Program-made: the position numbers and the translations under genes
Notes under the pieces: generated by a model
The model's input: only the letters and a program-made list of their open reading frames with translations
The model's database searches: none
Told to the model about the DNA's origin: nothing
Shown: piece after piece, positions 648 to 21,668 of the stretch
Layout of the letters: each line of letters opens with the position of its first letter
How positions within the stretch are numbered: the first letter of the stretch is position 1
DNA from: Akkermansia sp.
GTDB taxonomy: Bacteria > Verrucomicrobiota > Verrucomicrobiia > Verrucomicrobiales > Akkermansiaceae
Assembly (NCBI GenBank): GCA_017517385.1
Contig: JAFWZG010000051.1
Span: 1 to 44,426 of the forward strand
Reading direction: 5' to 3'
DNA length: 44,426 nucleotides

Positions 648-1805
648 TCAATAATCAAAACGCTCAATAGGCAGTCCCTGAGCAATCCGCGATAATTCCT
701 GCAACTGGTATGTAGATGCGCGGCGTCCTGCACCATTGGTGCGTATGTGTAAAATTCCGGCATCCACAAGAGAATTAATCATGCGTTGCACAGTCGCAGT
801 ATTAACCTCGTTAATACAGGCACTTATTTTGGGTTTACTGAAAATGGGAGTTTCAAATATGGCATCTAATAATAACCCACACGAAGCAGATTTCGTGATA
901 TTGGGGATTTCTGTTTGGAGCTCCTTGTATAATCTCTGCATAGCCGCAGCTCGTCTCATATTTTCCCGTGCTTGTTCATCAACGGCTTGCAAGAAGAATA
1001 AAAGCCATGGTTCCCAAGCCGTCGGATCTTGGTGCAGAGCATTTAAACTATCAATATATTCCTCTCTGTGAGTTTCAAAATATTCACTCAGATAAAATAC
1101 CGGTCTTTCCAATAATCCCTTACTGTGCAAGTAAAAAGGTATCAGCAAGCGTCCCACTCGTCCATTGCCATCATGAAATGGGTGTATCAATTCAAACTGA
1201 GCATGTAGAATACCACTTTGCAACAGCGGATCAACTTCATTAGATGTGGCGTTCTCAATCCAGTTTTCCAAATATGATTCAACTGTTGTTGGGGGCGGCG
1301 GCACATAAGTGGCCTGTTCTATACTACTCCCTGGAGCTCCTATCCAATTTTGAGTATCTCTAACCAATCCCGGCCGTTTATTCTGTCCTCGTACAGATTG
1401 AAGTAATATGGCGTGCATATCCTTGATAAGGCCTAGTGTCAGGCCTCGCTCGCTGAGGCTGTGTGTAGCGAAACGCATCGCTTCCCGATAATTAAGAATC
1501 TCCTGTACATCCAATTTCTGCGCTTCGGTAAATTCTTCACCCGCTTCCAGCGAATATACTTCATCAATTGTTGAGCGAGTACCCTCTATCCTAGATGATA
1601 AAACAGCCTCCTGTGTCATCATCGGCGACAACAATACGTTTGCGTAACTTTTTTCGCTGAGCATACCGTCCAATCGGGCAAGACTTCTGCTTGCTTTACC
1701 GTATGCTGTAAATAAGTACTCAATCCTATATGTATTTACCGGAAGATATGGAAGTATGTATGAAACACTCATAAGTATAGCTTCTTGTTTAGCGAATTTG
1801 CTCAT
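648..1805 (-). CDS. Fic domain protein, class II, with C-terminal winged helix
   Basis: Fic proteins transfer AMP or another phosphate-containing group onto target hydroxyls. The catalytic motif HPFHDGNGRVGR is intact near residue 210. Upstream, near residue 70, lies SSRIEGT, which fits the (S/T)xxxE(G/N) inhibitory helix; because it precedes the Fic core in the same chain the protein is class II and probably self-inhibited. The last 80 residues look like a winged-helix DNA-binding domain, as in many Fic_N-type proteins. I prefer the ATG at 1805; a TTG three codons upstream would give 388 residues. No good Shine-Dalgarno site is visible. The gene is AT-rich, sits in front of the truncated phosphodiesterase gene and follows an unusual hairpin repeat. 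Confidence 0.88.
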   Translation of the reverse strand: MSKFAKQEAILMSVSYILPYLPVNTYRIEYLFTAYGKASRSLARLDGMLSEKSYANVLLSPMMTQEAVLSSRIEGTRSTIDEVYSLEAGEEFTEAQKLDVQEILNYREAMRFATHSLSERGLTLGLIKDMHAILLQSVRGQNKRPGLVRDTQNWIGAPGSSIEQATYVPPPPTTVESYLENWIENATSNEVDPLLQSGILHAQFELIHPFHDGNGRVGRLLIPFYLHSKGLLERPVFYLSEYFETHREEYIDSLNALHQDPTAWEPWLLFFLQAVDEQARENMRRAAAMQRLYKELQTEIPNITKSASCGLLLDAIFETPIFSKPKISACINEVNTATVQRMINSLVDAGILHIRTNGAGRRASTYQLQELSRIAQGLPIERFDY

Positions 1806-1870
1806 TTTTGTCAATCAAAAAACTTCGTTTATGTCCAACAAACCTATATTAAACTCTATTTGAGTAAAAC

Positions 1871-2053
1871 AAGAAGGCTTGTTTCGCATCATTCTCGTTT
1901 TATGCGAAACAAAGTCTTTTGTGATGCATGCGTGCATCACAAGAAATGTTGTCTTGCATAATTTGGGTTTTTTGCAAGACAAAGTCTTTTGTGATGCATG
2001 CGTGCAACACAAGAAAAATTGACTTGCATCATTTACTTTTTGTGCAAGGCAAA
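1871..2053. repeat. Tandem 70-bp repeat, 2.6 units, each with a covarying hairpin
   Basis: Units start at 1871, 1941 and 2011, each with AAGAA, at an exact 70-bp period; the third is cut after about 43 bases. In each unit columns 11-19 pair with columns 32-40 (for example GTTTCGCAT with ATGCGAAAC in unit 1 and GTCTTGCA with TGCAAGAC in unit 2). Two stem positions change on both sides between units (T-A to C-G and C-G to T-A), so pairing is kept while sequence changes. A second hairpin, TTGTGATGCA-TGCG-TGCATCACAA, spans the unit 1/unit 2 junction (1919-1942) and is nearly repeated 70 bases later. There are no spacers, so it is not a CRISPR. Function unknown; possibly a structured RNA or a protein binding array. 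Confidence 0.85.
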
Positions 2054-2235
2054 ATTATCATGTTCTATCCTAATGTCCCTGATTTAATCGACCCTTTTAG
2101 TAATGTGACTGGAACCGCACGAGTCTAAGCGAGTCCTTTTGGCTGCAAAACAGGGGAAAAATGGATGCAAAATCAGCCCCGGAAGTCCGTTTTTCGTTAT
2201 GAGTTGCGATTTTATAAGTCGCTGAAATCGAGGCA
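2054..2235. other. Intergenic stretch, no gene seen
   Basis: Between the hairpin repeat and the tRNA terminator I see no credible gene. A short direct repeat CGAGTC-TAAG-CGAGTC lies near 2118-2133. This is where an insertion junction would be expected if the tRNA was an integration site, but no copy of the tRNA 3' end was noticed here. Confidence 0.4.
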
Positions 2236-2281
2236 CAAAAAAGGAGCGGTCGTTACCATTTTTATTGGTTACGACCGCTCC
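2236..2281 (-). terminator. Rho-independent terminator of tRNA-Met
   Basis: Arms at 2243-2257 and 2267-2281 pair over 15 positions with one mismatch and a 9-base loop. On the minus strand the hairpin is followed by a run of seven T (A-run 2236-2242 on the plus strand). It lies just downstream of the tRNA 3' end. Confidence 0.85.
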
Positions 2282-2286
2282 CATAA

Positions 2287-2358
<72 letters not shown>

Positions 2359-2390
2359 ATTGTATCAGCGCTTCAGTAGCGTGTGGCAGG

Positions 2391-2419
2391 AGTATACACG
2401 AAGGAGAGGACTTTGGCAA
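2391..2419 (-). promoter_or_regulatory. Sigma-70-type promoter of tRNA-Met
   Basis: On the minus strand TTGCCA (2414-2419), 17-bp spacer, TATACT (2391-2396). The predicted start is about 25 bases before the mature tRNA 5' end. Confidence 0.7.
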
Positions 2420-2587
2420 GAGTAAAATTGATTTTTTTTAATTTTTTTTATTGGGGATGGGAGTTTGGGGTAGGGAATTGATGGTGGAAGAGTGGTTGTG
2501 AGGTGCCGTAAGCGCTTCTTGTTTAAAGGGGTGGTGGGTGTGGGGGAAGAATGGCTGAAAATTAGTGTGGTGTGGCATAGAATTATT

Positions 2588-2617
2588 TTGACACGGGGGC
2601 AGGGGATAGGGTACTAT
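2588..2617 (+). promoter_or_regulatory. Promoter of xth, abutting the start codon
   Basis: TTGACA (2588-2593), 18-bp spacer, TACTAT (2612-2617). Only nine bases separate the -10 from the ATG at 2627, so the predicted leader is two or three bases. Confidence 0.65.
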
Positions 2618-2626
2618 GTGGGCAAG

Positions 2627-3385
2627 ATGAAATTAGTGAGCTGGAATGTGAATGGGCTTCGCGCCACTCTGGGCAAAGGGCTGGCCGAAAAGATGGATGC
2701 TATGGGCGCGGATGTGCTGTGCTTGCAGGAGATTAAGGCCCGCCCGGAACAGGTGGCTGACCTGTGGCTGGCAAGCTGGCCGCATGCGCTCTGGAACCCG
2801 GCGCAGCGCCCCGGTTATTCCGGTGTGTTGATTCTTTCCCGCGTGGCTCCGCTGAGCACGAGCACGGGTATCGGCTGCCCTGAGCATGATACCGAGGGGC
2901 GCGTGGCTACGATGGAGTTTGAGGATTTTTACCTTGTGAACTGCTACACGCCGAACTCGCAGAATGAGCTCGCCCGCCTGCCGTATCGTCAGGAGTGGGA
3001 TGCCGCTTTCCGTGCCTATGTGAGCGGATTGGCGGAGAAGAAGCCCGTGGTGTTCTGCGGGGACTTGAACGTGGCTCATGAGGAGATAGACCTTGCCCGC
3101 CCGGCGACCAACCATTTCAGCGCCGGTTTCTCGGATGAGGAGCGCGCGGGATTCACGGAGCTTCTCGGGGCCGGCTTTGCGGATACCTTCCGCCGCTTGC
3201 ACCCGGATGCGCGGGATGCCTATAGCTGGTGGAGCTTCCGCGGTGGTGCCCGCGCGAGGAACGTGGGCTGGCGTATTGATTACTTCTGCGTGAGTGAGGG
3301 GCTGATGCCGCGCGTGGCGACCGCCGAGATTCATGCGGACGTGACCGGCTCGGATCACTGCCCCGTATCACTGGTATTAAACTAA
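2627..3385 (+). CDS. xth: Exodeoxyribonuclease III
   Basis: AP endonuclease and 3'-5' exonuclease of base excision repair, cytoplasmic. The 252-residue product begins MKLVSWNVNG, with QEIKA near residue 36 (metal-binding Glu), GDLNVAHEEIDL near 145 and SDHCPVSLVL at the end (catalytic Asp-His); all expected active-site motifs are present and the length is normal for the family. The reading frame is open for 135 bases upstream, but the N-terminal family motif and the promoter ending at 2617 place the start at 2627. The stop overlaps the ATG of the following phosphoesterase gene (TAATG), suggesting translational coupling. The purine-rich sequence between the tRNA promoter and this gene shows nothing else. 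Confidence 0.95.
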   Translation: MKLVSWNVNGLRATLGKGLAEKMDAMGADVLCLQEIKARPEQVADLWLASWPHALWNPAQRPGYSGVLILSRVAPLSTSTGIGCPEHDTEGRVATMEFEDFYLVNCYTPNSQNELARLPYRQEWDAAFRAYVSGLAEKKPVVFCGDLNVAHEEIDLARPATNHFSAGFSDEERAGFTELLGAGFADTFRRLHPDARDAYSWWSFRGGARARNVGWRIDYFCVSEGLMPRVATAEIHADVTGSDHCPVSLVLN

Positions 3386-8965: not shown

Positions 8966-10162
8966 TCAGCGGCGGCGGGTTCTTCTGTTACGGGAACTGC
9001 TGCGGCTTGAGCGGGAACTACGGTTAGCGCGGCTGCGGGTGTTTCTGTTCCGGTTAGCGCGGCTGCGGTTCCGAGAGGAAGTGTTGGCCCTAGTGGGTTC
9101 CGGAGGCGCCGGAGCAGCTACCGGCTCAGGGGGGGGCGGTTCTGGAGTTACTTCCGGGGCGGGCTCCAGTTTGGCATCCGGGTTGATGTGCCGGGCGAAG
9201 GTGCATACGCCATCCGTGATGGCGGTGGCCAGCTGGGTGCGGTATTCAGGCGTGGCGAGTTTGGCGGCTTCCTCCGTGTTTGTTGAGTATCCGGCAAGCA
9301 CCATGATGGACGGGCATTCCACGGAGTTCAGAATGCTGTAGCGCGCGCGGCGGCAGGCACCATCATTCGCACCGGTTGCGGATACCATGGCGCTGTGCAC
9401 CGCAAAGGCAAGGGCGGCACTGGCCGCATCATGATTATTGGCGGGGCGCCGGGTGTTGCCGGGGCCATCCGGCGTGGCGGTGTAGGTCTCGATGCCCTGT
9501 ATGTCACTGCGGCCACTGTTCAGATGAAGGGAAATGAAGATGGGAGAGTCCGCGCTGCTGACGCAGTTAATGCGCTGGCGGTCAGACATGTGGCGGCTGT
9601 GTTCATGGGTAAGCTGCACGTTGTAACCGCGGCGGGTGAGTGCTTCTTTCAGCTCTTTTGCGAGGCTGAGGCAGAACTCTGCCTCATTTAGGCTGCCCGC
9701 GGTGTAGCCGGTATCGTACCCGCCGTGGCCGGGGTCAATAATCACCGTGCGCACCACGCGGCGGTTCGCAATGTAGGTGGGGCGCAGCACGGGGTCAAAA
9801 ATCTTGACGGCGTCTACCTCGGAGATGAGGATGTCACCGGAGCCATCTTCGCGTATGGGGTAGGAAAGCAGCCAGCGATAGCCTCCGATGTTCACCTCCC
9901 TTTTGCCGGGGCCAAAGGAGATGGTTGTGCCGGCATTAGCCACAGTGCGCAGGGTGCCATTGTTTGTATTCGGCTGAGGGAGCAGCTTGTAGAAGCTGCG
10001 CAGCTGTTCGAGCTGCAGGTAGCGAGGCTCTGCCGGCATGGGGGGGGGCGTGGGGGCTGCCGGAGCTAAAGGCTCTGCCGGGGCTTCTTCACAGTAGCCG
10101 GGCTGGGCGGCCTGCAGGAGCAGGCCGAGAAGAATTAATCTGATGGCAGGCGAGAGACTCAT
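8966..10162 (-). CDS. Amidase_3-like exported protein lacking the catalytic Glu
   Basis: Paralogue of the next gene. The 398 residues comprise a signal peptide (about 1-25), a domain similar to copper amine oxidase N-terminal/stalk domains (about 45-140), an Amidase_3 domain (about 145-320), a Pro-rich linker and a tail of about 42 residues made mostly of Arg, Ser and Asn. The zinc ligands of the N-acetylmuramoyl-L-alanine amidase fold look present (DPGHGG, NEAEF, SLHLNSG). The catalytic Glu is not: where active enzymes have E in VLFEGGF or LVETGF this protein has PSIMVLAGY, encoded by CTT. It may bind peptidoglycan without cutting, or regulate the active copy. It lies 20 bases after the active paralogue, in the same operon. 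Confidence 0.85.
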   Translation of the reverse strand: MSLSPAIRLILLGLLLQAAQPGYCEEAPAEPLAPAAPTPPPMPAEPRYLQLEQLRSFYKLLPQPNTNNGTLRTVANAGTTISFGPGKREVNIGGYRWLLSYPIREDGSGDILISEVDAVKIFDPVLRPTYIANRRVVRTVIIDPGHGGYDTGYTAGSLNEAEFCLSLAKELKEALTRRGYNVQLTHEHSRHMSDRQRINCVSSADSPIFISLHLNSGRSDIQGIETYTATPDGPGNTRRPANNHDAASAALAFAVHSAMVSATGANDGACRRARYSILNSVECPSIMVLAGYSTNTEEAAKLATPEYRTQLATAITDGVCTFARHINPDAKLEPAPEVTPEPPPPEPVAAPAPPEPTRANTSSRNRSRANRNRNTRSRANRSSRSSRSSSRNRRTRRR

Positions 10163-17230: not shown

Positions 17231-19972
17231 TTAGGGTGCTTCCGCCACGTCGTCATCCGTGAAGAGCGGAGTCTCGCTTTCGGGATCCACGGCAATGTCA
17301 TCGTCCGGCAGTTCGGTTTCATTCGGATCCTCTGCAAGCTCATCATCTGCGCTGTGAGATTGCATGACGGGGTGCTCCGTGCAGAAGCTACGGGGCTTGG
17401 TGATGTCCGTCATGGTTTCGGTATAAGCCGTGCGGCGGTATTCACAGCCGGCATGAGCGAGTCCGCCGGAGGTGCGGCAGAGGCGTACGCCTCTGTTGCG
17501 CAGGCCGGCAGCTGTTTGGCGGATGGGGCCCATGTGGTACCCGAGGCGCTGGGCTTGTTTCATGGCGCTTACCCAGATGGGCAGAGCGATAGTGCCGCCG
17601 TAAGCCCTATCTGCGATGGTGGTGGGGCGGTCAAATCCTACCCAGACGGCTGCGGTGATATCTGATGTGAAGCCGCAGAACCAGGCGTTCCGGTATGCAT
17701 TCGTAGTGCCGGTTTTGCCACCGGCCGGGGCGGTGAAGCCAAGGCGCTGCATGCTGCCGGCGGTGCCACCGGGCTTGGTTATCTGCTGGAGTACGGCGGA
17801 GATGGCATTAGCTGTTTTCTGGCTGTAGATGCGGTAGGCTGAGTGGGGGTTCTGCCAGATGATGCGGCCCTCGGAGTCCGTGATGCTTTCAATGATGTAC
17901 GGTGTGGGGCGTACGCCGCCATTCGCGAAGGCGGTGTAGGCACCGGCTACTTCCAGCGGGGAGGCTTCCCACGTGCCGAGGTAGATGGTGGGGCCGGGCT
18001 GACGCTGCGGCTGCGGGAAGCCGCTCATGAGGGCTGTGTTCACTACGTTCTGCAGGCCGGCTCGGGCGCCAACGCGAACGGACATCGTGTTGCGGCTCTT
18101 GAGAAGCCCCCATGAGGCCGGGTGTCTGCCGGTGAAGCGGCCATCAGAGTTTCTGGGGCTCCAGCGGCTTCCGCCGGGGATTTCGCCGGGCTGAATGCGG
18201 CCGTCAGAAATCATGCTGTTCGGGCTGCCACCCTGCTCAAAGAACGTGGCGTAGACAAGGGGTTTGAAGATAGAGCCTACCTGACGACGGCTTTGCAAGG
18301 CGCGGTTCAAGGGGGATTCCGTGCTGTCTCGGCCACCTACCACGGAGAGCAGGGCACCGGTGGCATTATCTATCATCACGCAGGCTGCCTGCACGTATTT
18401 GGGGGCTGGACGTATGGCATCAGGAGCGAGCCCGGCTACTAGATTCTGATATTGCCGGCGGGTTTGGTGCGGGTAGCGACGGCCGTTTTCCAGCATGCTT
18501 TCCAGCTGGGAGTTTATCTCCTGCATCACGGCATCTTGCAGGTCTACGTCCAGCGTGGTGCGGACTATTAGGCCGCCGGAGATGATTGAGGATTCCTTAA
18601 GGCGTTCTTCGCGGGTATCCAGCATTTCCAGAATGTGATCTACTTCGCTGCGGATGAGATCCAGCGCATAGTTGTCAATGCCTCGGCGTTCTGGGCGCTT
18701 GGTGACAATCTCCTCGGCCAAGGCGGTTTCATATTGGGTGCGCGTGATTTTGCCGTGCTCCATGAGGAGGCGCAGCACTTTGTCTCGCTGGATGCGGGCG
18801 AACTCCGGGTTGCGATAGGGGGAGAAAGTGTTCGGGTTGCACACAATGCCGGCGAGCATGGCAGCTTCGCCGATGGTGAGGTCTCGCGGTTCTTTGCTGA
18901 AGTAGCCGTATGCCGCTTGTTTGAGGCCTAAGAAAGTATGGCCCCAGAACACGCGGTTGATGTAGCACATGAGGATGGTGTCCTTGTCGTATGTGGCTTC
19001 GATACGGCGTGCCAGTGCCATTTCCGTGAATTTGGCGTCAAAGTTTCGCACGCGGTGCTGGTATGTATTCTTAGCCAGCTGCATGGTGAGAGTGGAGCCG
19101 CCCTGAGTGGTGCGGCCGTGTTTGAAAACCTGAGCCACGGCACGCAGCATGCCTCGGGGGTCTATGCCACCATGCGTCCAGTAGGAACGGTCTTCCTGCA
19201 ATATGAGCGCGTCGATAAAGTATGTGGGTACCTCGCTCTTCAAATCCGTGATGCTGCGGCGGTTTTCGCCATGCAGGGTGCCGATTTCGTTCCCTTTGCG
19301 ATCCTGTACGATGGTACGCTCCGGCATGCGCATGACCAAGGTGAGATCATAGTGCCCGGATTTGATGGCGTAGAACATGATGAGGATGAGCGCGAAAAGG
19401 CTTCCCACGAAAGTGCCGCTGATAAGCAGGCGCAGCCCCCACTTGATAATCCACGGCAGCTTGCGCGTGATGAATGCTATCATGCGGAAGGGGAAGAAGA
19501 GCCACATGCCCAGCCCTTGCCAGAAGCTGGTGCCTTTTTTGGGCGGGTATTTGAGGTCGGACCATGGGTTTTCTTCCGCGTCCGGGGCGGGAGCCGGGCG
19601 TGTGCGGCGGTATTCGCGCTTGGGGCCCGGGGTGCCGAAAGCACTTTCCGGGTTCCGGGGGGTATCCGAATGTAGTACGCGGCGGCCATCAGCATCCGCC
19701 TGCGCCTGCAGTGGGTCTTCCTTTTCCATGTATCCGGGGAGCGGTGCCGGGCTGTCAGTCACCCGGCGTCTGGCAGGGGTATTGCGCGGAGCTTTGGGGG
19801 CGGCTGGTGCGATGGGGAGGGGGGCGGCCTCGTGCTCGGAGGTCTCTTCTTCTTCCTCGTAACGGCCGGCAGGTACACGTTTGCGCGGAGCTGCCTGACT
19901 GTACAGCACGCCGCCACCCTGAGAATTGTTATTCGGGGTGCCGGAGGAAGAGTCCTTGTAGCGTGCACACAT
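17231..19972 (-). CDS. Class A penicillin-binding protein (PBP1A type)
   Basis: Bifunctional peptidoglycan synthase of 913 residues. A long Pro/Glu-rich cytoplasmic N-terminus is followed by one membrane helix (about 180-203), a GT51 glycosyltransferase (catalytic Glu near 260 in QEDRSYWTHGG, and GGSTLTMQLAKNTYQ) and a transpeptidase domain with Ser in GSIFKPL near 567, SRN near 626 and KTGTT near 753. After this comes a Cys-containing segment and an acidic tail of about 45 residues. The frame is open a further 110 codons upstream, but that part overlaps a divergent promoter; the promoter at 19987-20015 lies between two ATGs and supports the one at 19972. The cytoplasmic extension is longer than usual. 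Confidence 0.93.
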   Translation of the reverse strand: MCARYKDSSSGTPNNNSQGGGVLYSQAAPRKRVPAGRYEEEEETSEHEAAPLPIAPAAPKAPRNTPARRRVTDSPAPLPGYMEKEDPLQAQADADGRRVLHSDTPRNPESAFGTPGPKREYRRTRPAPAPDAEENPWSDLKYPPKKGTSFWQGLGMWLFFPFRMIAFITRKLPWIIKWGLRLLISGTFVGSLFALILIMFYAIKSGHYDLTLVMRMPERTIVQDRKGNEIGTLHGENRRSITDLKSEVPTYFIDALILQEDRSYWTHGGIDPRGMLRAVAQVFKHGRTTQGGSTLTMQLAKNTYQHRVRNFDAKFTEMALARRIEATYDKDTILMCYINRVFWGHTFLGLKQAAYGYFSKEPRDLTIGEAAMLAGIVCNPNTFSPYRNPEFARIQRDKVLRLLMEHGKITRTQYETALAEEIVTKRPERRGIDNYALDLIRSEVDHILEMLDTREERLKESSIISGGLIVRTTLDVDLQDAVMQEINSQLESMLENGRRYPHQTRRQYQNLVAGLAPDAIRPAPKYVQAACVMIDNATGALLSVVGGRDSTESPLNRALQSRRQVGSIFKPLVYATFFEQGGSPNSMISDGRIQPGEIPGGSRWSPRNSDGRFTGRHPASWGLLKSRNTMSVRVGARAGLQNVVNTALMSGFPQPQRQPGPTIYLGTWEASPLEVAGAYTAFANGGVRPTPYIIESITDSEGRIIWQNPHSAYRIYSQKTANAISAVLQQITKPGGTAGSMQRLGFTAPAGGKTGTTNAYRNAWFCGFTSDITAAVWVGFDRPTTIADRAYGGTIALPIWVSAMKQAQRLGYHMGPIRQTAAGLRNRGVRLCRTSGGLAHAGCEYRRTAYTETMTDITKPRSFCTEHPVMQSHSADDELAEDPNETELPDDDIAVDPESETPLFTDDDVAEAP

Positions 19973-19986
19973 GCTGTTACGCAGAG

Positions 19987-20015
19987 AGAATAGCATGAAA
20001 TAACTTGTACTGCAA
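19987..20015 (-). promoter_or_regulatory. Promoter of the penicillin-binding protein gene
   Basis: On the minus strand TTGCAG (20010-20015), 17-bp spacer, TATTCT (19987-19992). The predicted leader before the ATG at 19972 is about seven bases; the alternative ATG at 19996 would lie upstream of the transcription start. Confidence 0.5.
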
Positions 20016-20054
20016 GATAAAATGCCATCGTTGTGCGAAGGGCGCGGGTTAATC

Positions 20055-20083
20055 TTGACAAGCGGGAGCGCTTTCGATATGAT
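20055..20083 (+). promoter_or_regulatory. Near-consensus promoter of the 124-residue membrane protein gene
   Basis: TTGACA (20055-20060), 17-bp spacer, TATGAT (20078-20083). Eleven bases separate the -10 from the ATG at 20095, giving a leader of about four bases. Confidence 0.8.
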
Positions 20084-20094
20084 GCCCTTGGTAT

Positions 20095-20469
20095 ATGTAT
20101 ATTCCCACTCAGCAGGAGAGATATAGTAAGGTGGCCGGGTATACGCTTTTTTTATGCGTAGTGTTACCCAGTGCGATTGTACTGTGGGCGTATGGGAATG
20201 TGAATGATTTGCTGGCCTGTATTTTTGCGTTTCTTGAGCCTCCGGCAGTGTTGCTGCGGGTCGGGGGGTGTGGCCGTACGGCAGCATTTTTGTTATCCGC
20301 ACTCCTGCAAGCTATCCTGTTCTTCTGGGTACGCCGGAGCAGTAAGCTGACACCTAAGGGAAAGCTTACGCTGGCTGTGACATGGGGGATGCTTTTTGCC
20401 CTTATTTTGCGCCTGATGATAGCGTACCGTTTCTGGGTGGAGGCCGGTGGCGGCGGGGCTGAGAATTAA
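20095..20469 (+). CDS. Hypothetical membrane protein, three helices
   Basis: A 124-residue protein with hydrophobic stretches at about residues 14-33, 55-80 and 92-111; no known family. The strong promoter makes expression likely. If translation begins at the ATG the mRNA is nearly leaderless; a GTG at 20131, in frame, with AGGAG at 20114-20118, is an alternative that would drop twelve residues and start at the first helix. The stop overlaps the stop of the convergent ribbon-helix-helix gene. Confidence 0.72.
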   Translation: MYIPTQQERYSKVAGYTLFLCVVLPSAIVLWAYGNVNDLLACIFAFLEPPAVLLRVGGCGRTAAFLLSALLQAILFFWVRRSSKLTPKGKLTLAVTWGMLFALILRLMIAYRFWVEAGGGGAEN

Positions 20470-20684: not shown

Positions 20685-21668
20685 TTAGTTTTCTCTCAGG
20701 TCATCCATCCAAGCTGCAACACTTTCATAGCGATCTTCGATGGCGGGGGCCATCGCTTTGTCTATGCTGGCCAGCAGTTGGATATTGTAGTGGCTCCTCA
20801 GCGTTGGCATGGCTGCCAAGGGGGTGATTGTATCGTACAATGCACGCTGGCGGGCAGGGGGCGGCGGGGTGCCGGCGAGTAGGAAATATAGCGTGGCTGC
20901 AAAGGCGTACAAATCTGTCCACGGGCCTTGGGGAAGGTGAGGGTCGCCTTGCTCCGGGGCGCTGAAGAATGGGGTTTCAACGCTGACGGCCGGTGCGTCT
21001 TCCGTCATGTCACGCGCGGCCCCCATGTCAATGAGGACGGGGCGGCCATCACGGGCGATGAGGATGTTATCCGGCTTTATGTCTAGGTGCAGAATATGGT
21101 GCTCATGCATATAGCTGAGGGCATCCAATATTCTTACCATGAGTGAGTAAAGGTCCTGTTGCGGAAAGAAGTGTAAATGCTTGAGGTAGTCAGCCACAAC
21201 ATCGGTAAGCATCATGCCGTCCACGAACTCGGTTACGAAGTACGAGGTGTTGTGCGCCTCAAAGTAGGCATATATTTTCAGGAGGTTGGGGTGGTTCAGG
21301 CGCGCTAACAAGCGAACTTCTCGCTGGAAATTGCTCAGCGCGTGTTGGTAATCCTCCGGGTTGATGTGTGATTGGTACTCAACATTCAGTGTGCCGCAAC
21401 GGCGCTCGCAGAGGCAGTGGGGAAAATTTTCTTTGATGACGACGCGGCGCTGCAGGAGGGCGTCTGTCGCAAGGTAGGTGACGCCGAATCCGCCCTCGCC
21501 GAGGCAGCGCATGATGCGGTAGCCGTTAATCATGTAATTGGGCGGTAACTCTTTGGGTGCCGGGCATATATCATAACCCGGCTCGCCGGTGTGGGGCATG
21601 ATATCCTGCGGAGTTTCTCCTGTACCCGGTTCTGTGGGGGGCGATAGGGGCCTGGCGTCCATATTCAT
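20685..21668 (-). CDS. Compact Ser/Thr protein kinase
   Basis: A eukaryotic-like (PknB-type) kinase of 327 residues, with a Gly-rich loop GEGGFGVTYLA near residue 55, the ATP-binding Lys in VVIKENFP, catalytic HLDIKPDN near 175 and DMGAA (usual DFG) near 195, then APEQ. All catalytic residues are present, so it should be active. Unlike most relatives it has no transmembrane helix or extracellular sensor and is cytosolic. A Cys cluster, PHCLCERRCG, follows the N-lobe Lys. It starts 21 bases after the acyl-activating enzyme gene and is the last of a five-gene unit, so that enzyme is a candidate partner. Confidence 0.9.
   Translation of the reverse strand: MNMDARPLSPPTEPGTGETPQDIMPHTGEPGYDICPAPKELPPNYMINGYRIMRCLGEGGFGVTYLATDALLQRRVVIKENFPHCLCERRCGTLNVEYQSHINPEDYQHALSNFQREVRLLARLNHPNLLKIYAYFEAHNTSYFVTEFVDGMMLTDVVADYLKHLHFFPQQDLYSLMVRILDALSYMHEHHILHLDIKPDNILIARDGRPVLIDMGAARDMTEDAPAVSVETPFFSAPEQGDPHLPQGPWTDLYAFAATLYFLLAGTPPPPARQRALYDTITPLAAMPTLRSHYNIQLLASIDKAMAPAIEDRYESVAAWMDDLREN

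Follow-up and report, generated by a model that had tools for sequence, protein, structure and literature searches.

Amidase Gene Pair in the Akkermansia Contig

The window, meaning the whole 44,426-nucleotide stretch analyzed (positions 1 to 44,426 of contig JAFWZG010000051.1, Akkermansia sp., assembly GCA_017517385.1), encodes two adjoining Amidase_3 proteins on the reverse strand, designated A and B (Table 1). Gene A lies on the upstream side of gene B, and the two are separated by a gap of 20 bp. Pfam Amidase_3 (PF01520, cut-off 27 bits) was matched by residues 130–319 of A with 169.7 bits and by residues 140–319 of B with 126 bits, and the two proteins can be aligned over 288 columns, N-terminal domain included, at 35% identity; the tandem arrangement given in the original prediction was thus recovered. 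B consists of a hydrophobic N-terminus, a domain at approximately residues 44–136, the Amidase_3 domain, a Pro-rich linker and a basic tail, and Amidase_3 was its sole match in a Pfam scan up to an E-value of 0.1.

The source genome (2.66 Mb in 157 contigs) contains six Amidase_3 matches, and the Glu of the catalytic motif is present in all five matches other than B, as judged by alignment for A, by profile for L004 and L005, and by eye for L003 and L006. A GT10 alpha-1,3-fucosyltransferase-like gene (PF00852; 11421–12380, reverse strand) is located just upstream of the amidase pair. Elsewhere in the window, a Fic/DOC family protein is encoded at 648–1814, and a class A penicillin-binding-protein-like gene lies beside a Ser/Thr kinase gene (17231–20302 and 20685–21668), all on the reverse strand.

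Table 1. Positions in the window of the amidase genes, domains and residues discussed in the text.
Feature	Coordinates	Strand	Basis
B (398 aa), Amidase_3 paralogue lacking the catalytic Glu	8966..10162	-	ORF list, Pfam, A/B alignment
A, intact Amidase_3 paralogue, 358 aa	10183..11259	-	ORF list, Pfam, A/B alignment
N-terminal domain of B, copper-amine-oxidase-N (Cu_amine_oxidN1)-like fold, common to A	9755..10033	-	model and profile
Amidase_3 domain of B	9206..9745	-	Pfam; AF2 model, PDB comparison
C-terminal basic low-complexity tail of B	8969..9100	-	composition
His146 of B, zinc ligand	9725..9727	-	family alignment
Tyr149 of B	9716..9718	-	family alignment columns
Glu160 of B, zinc ligand	9683..9685	-	family alignment
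His213 of B, zinc ligand	9524..9526	-	family alignment
Ala269 of B	9356..9358	-	family alignment columns
Leu289 of B, codon CTT, catalytic Glu position	9296..9298	-	sequence, codon read, alignment
Catalytic Glu287 of A, codon GAA	10399..10401	-	sequence, A/B alignment

Active Site and Domain Structure of B

In the alignment of the two proteins, the motif VLFEGGF of A stands opposite IMVLAGY of B, so that Leu289, encoded by CTT, replaces the general-base Glu in B, and the three zinc ligands (His146, Glu160 and His213) are all present; both features agree with the original prediction. The corresponding residues named in the amidase CwlD are His49, Glu65, His133 and Glu199 (PMC8496864, extracts), and the equivalence of positions between CwlD and B was taken from the family alignment and the fold. 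According to the same extracts, the E199A substitution abolished the function of CwlD while its binding to GerS and its protein level were kept, and mutation of the zinc ligands weakened the complex with GerS (PMC8496864). Eight close orthologues of B from other genomes, with 57–64% identity, all lack the Glu. Chance, a frameshift or an assembly error was ruled out as the cause of the missing residue, since close orthologues share the loss and the frames are open.

The AF2 model of B has a mean pLDDT of 86.9 and exceeds 90 in the amidase domain. The best 24 PDB matches to this model are amidases and phage endolysins (Z 20.6–28.7, 162–194 residues), headed by the C. difficile structure 4rn7 (Z 28.7, 1.5 A over 180 residues); AmiC2 (5emi), CwlD (7rag) and CwlV (1jwq) are other solved structures that match the fold. 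When modeled alone (pLDDT 89.2), the N-terminal domain is similar in fold to that of E. coli copper amine oxidase, with a Z of 8.7 across 88 residues; the next unrelated structure reaches a Z of only 4.1. The corresponding Pfam profile, PF07833, is weak in the family, with 3 of 64 members matched at E <= 1 (best 0.068) and no match for the member in the window. A hydrophobic helix at residues 5–16, read by eye from the AF2 model, suggests that B may be exported; A also has the look of an exported protein. The last 40 residues of B in the window contain 16 K/R and no D/E; 57 of the 58 B proteins found in the genus carry 7–20 K/R in this segment, and the basic tail is retained in proteins with and without the Glu alike.

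Distribution and Gene Order in the Genus

The survey covered 114 genomes in a first search and then 76 genomes of the genus, and the resulting family alignment comprises 74 A and 58 B proteins, which were assigned by score sorting. Among the 76 genomes, 58 contain both A and B, 16 contain A alone, and in two (G028 and G114) neither was found; G114 is a single contig of approximately 100% completeness. In 57 of the 58 genomes, B follows directly downstream of A in the same orientation. The sole exception is G008, in which the two genes (L061 and L062) are on different contigs and B lies away from the contig end.

In a quick tree, every genome with B has its A gene in a single clade (SH-aLRT 99), which favors a duplication on the branch leading to that clade. 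In a tree including an outgroup, B is on a long branch and A is not clearly its sister; constraining A and B to one clade in that tree gave a p-AU of 0.308, by which their monophyly is neither shown nor rejected.

Pattern of Glu Loss

The catalytic Glu is present in all 74 A proteins versus 38 of the 58 B proteins. The other 20 B proteins carry Leu (eight), Gln (four), Met (three), Val (two), Ser (two) or Cys (one) at this site, and Asp in none. Conservation of the Leu itself among orthologues, a point raised by the original prediction, was not borne out: members of the window's own clade have Leu, Gln or Met, Glu-less B proteins elsewhere have Val, Cys or Ser, and what they share is the absence of an acid. 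In relatives from 80 loci outside the genus, which were picked by patterns near the first zinc His or before the domain and not by the Glu, 87 of the 87 domain segments covering the site carry the residue (17 more segments end short of it). The presence of Glu in every A protein and in all of these outside relatives suggests that it is the older state.

The zinc ligands are far more constant, with His146 in 57, His213 in 57 and Glu160 in 58 of the 58 B proteins, and 19 of the 20 Glu-less members keep all three. Most sites that are at least 90% conserved among A and Glu-bearing B proteins are likewise unchanged in the Glu-less clade; besides position 289, the clearest changes in this clade are at positions 149 and 269. 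His149 is found in 74/74 A proteins, 33/38 Glu-bearing B proteins and 1/20 Glu-less B proteins, and Gly269 in 74/74, 38/38 and 6/20, respectively, with Ala in the other 14. Position 149 is variable outside the genus and is therefore not a general catalytic residue. His149 and Gly269 change together with Glu289, but just two to three independent pairs underlie this co-variation. The Glu-less clade has more acidic residues at columns 133, 170 and 173; in the AF2 model, the helix that follows Glu160 contains the latter two, the first is placed just before the domain, and no acid gained at the active site was identified by sequence in this clade.

The most derived B protein is L067 (G049, 1803–3065, reverse strand), which has Ser at the Glu site and a very long branch. 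Its zinc His pair is replaced by Tyr and Arg, and its tail is acidic, the final 40 residues containing 11 D/E against 1 K/R. Some B genes may thus be degenerating, as L067 has also lost zinc ligands and the tail.

Evolutionary History and Selection

Trees were built without the catalytic column and with L067 left out. They contain one clade of 13 Glu-less rows that includes the window (support 96/90), which comprises 15 rows in a later tree (97/86); its members come from 15 genomes that represent different species. The Cys/Ser pair sits among Glu-bearing rows, and the Val pair groups with the Glu-bearing L046 (87/79; 93/83 in the later tree). A single ancestral loss, tested by placing 17 Glu-less rows in one clade, was rejected (lnL lower by 228, p-AU 5.7e-72). 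The best trees require three changes at the Glu site, the starred branches force two, and a quick tree that includes L067 gives four. The grouping of the 13 rows with the Val pair was not rejected (p-AU 0.079), and the firm minimum is therefore two losses. These phylogenies indicate that the Glu was lost at least twice and most likely three to four times. The pattern is wider than a single-protein view would suggest, in that most B orthologues keep the residue and the others lost it on more than one occasion.

Estimates of dN/dS by NG86 for nine pairs of Glu-less B genes range from 0.06 to 0.22, although these are rough values, as the pairs share members and several have high dS. The A genes of the same genomes give 0.02–0.16, with B higher in eight of the nine Glu-less pairs, and six computable pairs of Glu-bearing B genes give 0.04–0.30 (one more pair is saturated). 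The faster evolution of B relative to A also fits partial relaxation. The reading frames of Glu-less B genes are open, and together with the retained zinc ligands and the dN/dS values this argues that Glu-less B is not simply decaying.

Possible Roles of B

The reading we favor, with a probability of roughly 0.6, is that B in the window is a zinc-keeping pseudo-amidase that binds peptidoglycan, acts as a partner of A, or both. As a tandem paralogue of A, B has retained the common fold, its N-terminal domain and the zinc site and ends in a basic tail, but its general-base Glu was lost, once in the clade to which the window belongs and separately in other lineages. Without this Glu, the zinc-bound water would not be activated in the normal way and the MurNAc-L-Ala bond would be left uncut by B. 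Most likely, peptidoglycan would then be held in the groove of B with the basic tail as an anchor, and/or B would pair with the co-encoded active A and place or limit its cutting. That the general base is gone while nearly everything else is maintained suggests that the selected role of B is binding, be it to peptidoglycan, to A or to both. The pseudo-enzyme proposed in the original prediction is well supported by the repeated loss of Glu, the retained zinc ligands, the signs of purifying selection and the non-functional E199A mutant of CwlD (PMC8496864, extracts); a loss of catalysis by B in the window is likewise well supported, as judged from its sequence. A partner or anchoring role, and with it the peptidoglycan binding or control of the neighbour named in the original prediction, is plausible and would fit the adjacency to A in 57 of 58 genomes, the kept basic tail and the precedents among known systems; an occupied zinc site, binding to peptidoglycan, contact with A and export are putative properties of B. 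Retention of the zinc ligands could also point to residual activity. The 38 Glu-bearing orthologues probably do cut, and the pseudo-enzyme state is therefore not a trait of the whole family.

A bolder version, which we regard as tentative and rather doubtful, is that B throughout the genus is an obligate non-catalytic partner of A, a zinc-stabilized peptidoglycan receptor in which catalysis is dispensable even where the Glu is present. If true, it would account for three to four losses of the Glu during which the fold, zinc site, tail and gene order stayed.

It is unlikely that B is instead a redundant copy under relaxed constraint, with A doing the cutting, the Glu drifting and B slowly decaying with no new role. 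Such drift would agree with the many different residues at the Glu site, with the higher dN/dS of B in eight of nine Glu-less pairs and with the state of L067, which lacks zinc ligands and the basic tail. However, the dN/dS values remain at 0.06–0.22, most of the sites with at least 90% conservation are unchanged in the Glu-less clade, that clade extends over 15 genomes of different species, and the zinc ligands, tail and adjacency are retained in nearly all members. In a further alternative, with which the retained zinc ligands agree, B might still be an enzyme that manages with zinc alone, that draws its base from another acid, from A or from its N-terminal domain, or that cuts a different bond. 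We consider this improbable. Activity was at one time reported for CwlM, a protein without key zinc residues (cited in PMC4946905, extracts), and the increased acidity of columns 133, 170 and 173 might offer a substitute; however, by sequence these columns contribute no acid at the site, none of the 20 Glu-less proteins has Asp in place of Glu, and CwlD E199A is non-functional according to the extracts of PMC8496864. The pseudo-amidase reading would also imply that annotation as "amidase" overcounts the active enzymes in this genus.

Comparison with Known Systems

Wall growth repeatedly involves amidase activators and pseudo-hydrolases. The comparisons below draw on extracts of the cited papers, except for the solved structures. 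CwlM is a mycobacterial Amidase_3 homologue with non-conserved zinc residues that is cytoplasmic, is phosphorylated and activates MurA (PMC4946905, PMC6180346); like B, it has a degenerate active site, and its role is regulatory. It differs from B in that it lacks the zinc-coordinating residues, whereas B keeps them and has lost the Glu, and in that it is cytoplasmic, whereas B appears to be exported and is encoded behind an intact paralogue (PMC4946905). In the Amidase_3 domain of TftA of Nostoc punctiforme, a cell-wall morphogene product that shapes filament ends, Lys and Gln stand where His and Glu are usual, and TftA thus shares Gln at the Glu site with 4 of the 58 B proteins (PMC10710843). 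The Lys at an active-site His position and a glucosaminidase domain distinguish TftA from B, and the extracts describe no tandem pair (PMC10710843); B scores 22.7 bits against the NCBIfam TftA model (cut-off 500), and no glucosaminidase domain was found in B by Pfam up to an E-value of 0.1.

In the CwlD:GerS complex, the Amidase_3 zinc site also stabilizes partner binding, separably from the Glu, which offers a parallel to B, but CwlD is an active amidase and GerS is a lipoprotein and no paralogue (PMC8496864). The pairing of an inactive with an active subunit in the mitochondrial processing peptidase is comparable to the putative A/B pairing, although that enzyme belongs to another metallopeptidase family and its inactive subunit lacks the zinc residues (PMC11266112). 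CwlV (1jwq), the C. difficile enzyme (4rn7) and AmiC2 (5emi) share the fold of B (Z 26.6–28.7) and the zinc triad but, unlike B, have the catalytic Glu. In searches of open-licence PMC papers, no description of an active Amidase_3 protein followed by a Glu-less paralogue was found. B is thus set apart from the known pseudo-amidases in that the zinc ligands are kept, the Glu was lost more than once and an intact paralogue stands in front, and its matched Glu-bearing and Glu-less orthologues constitute a natural series for testing the amidase fold as a peptidoglycan-binding regulator.
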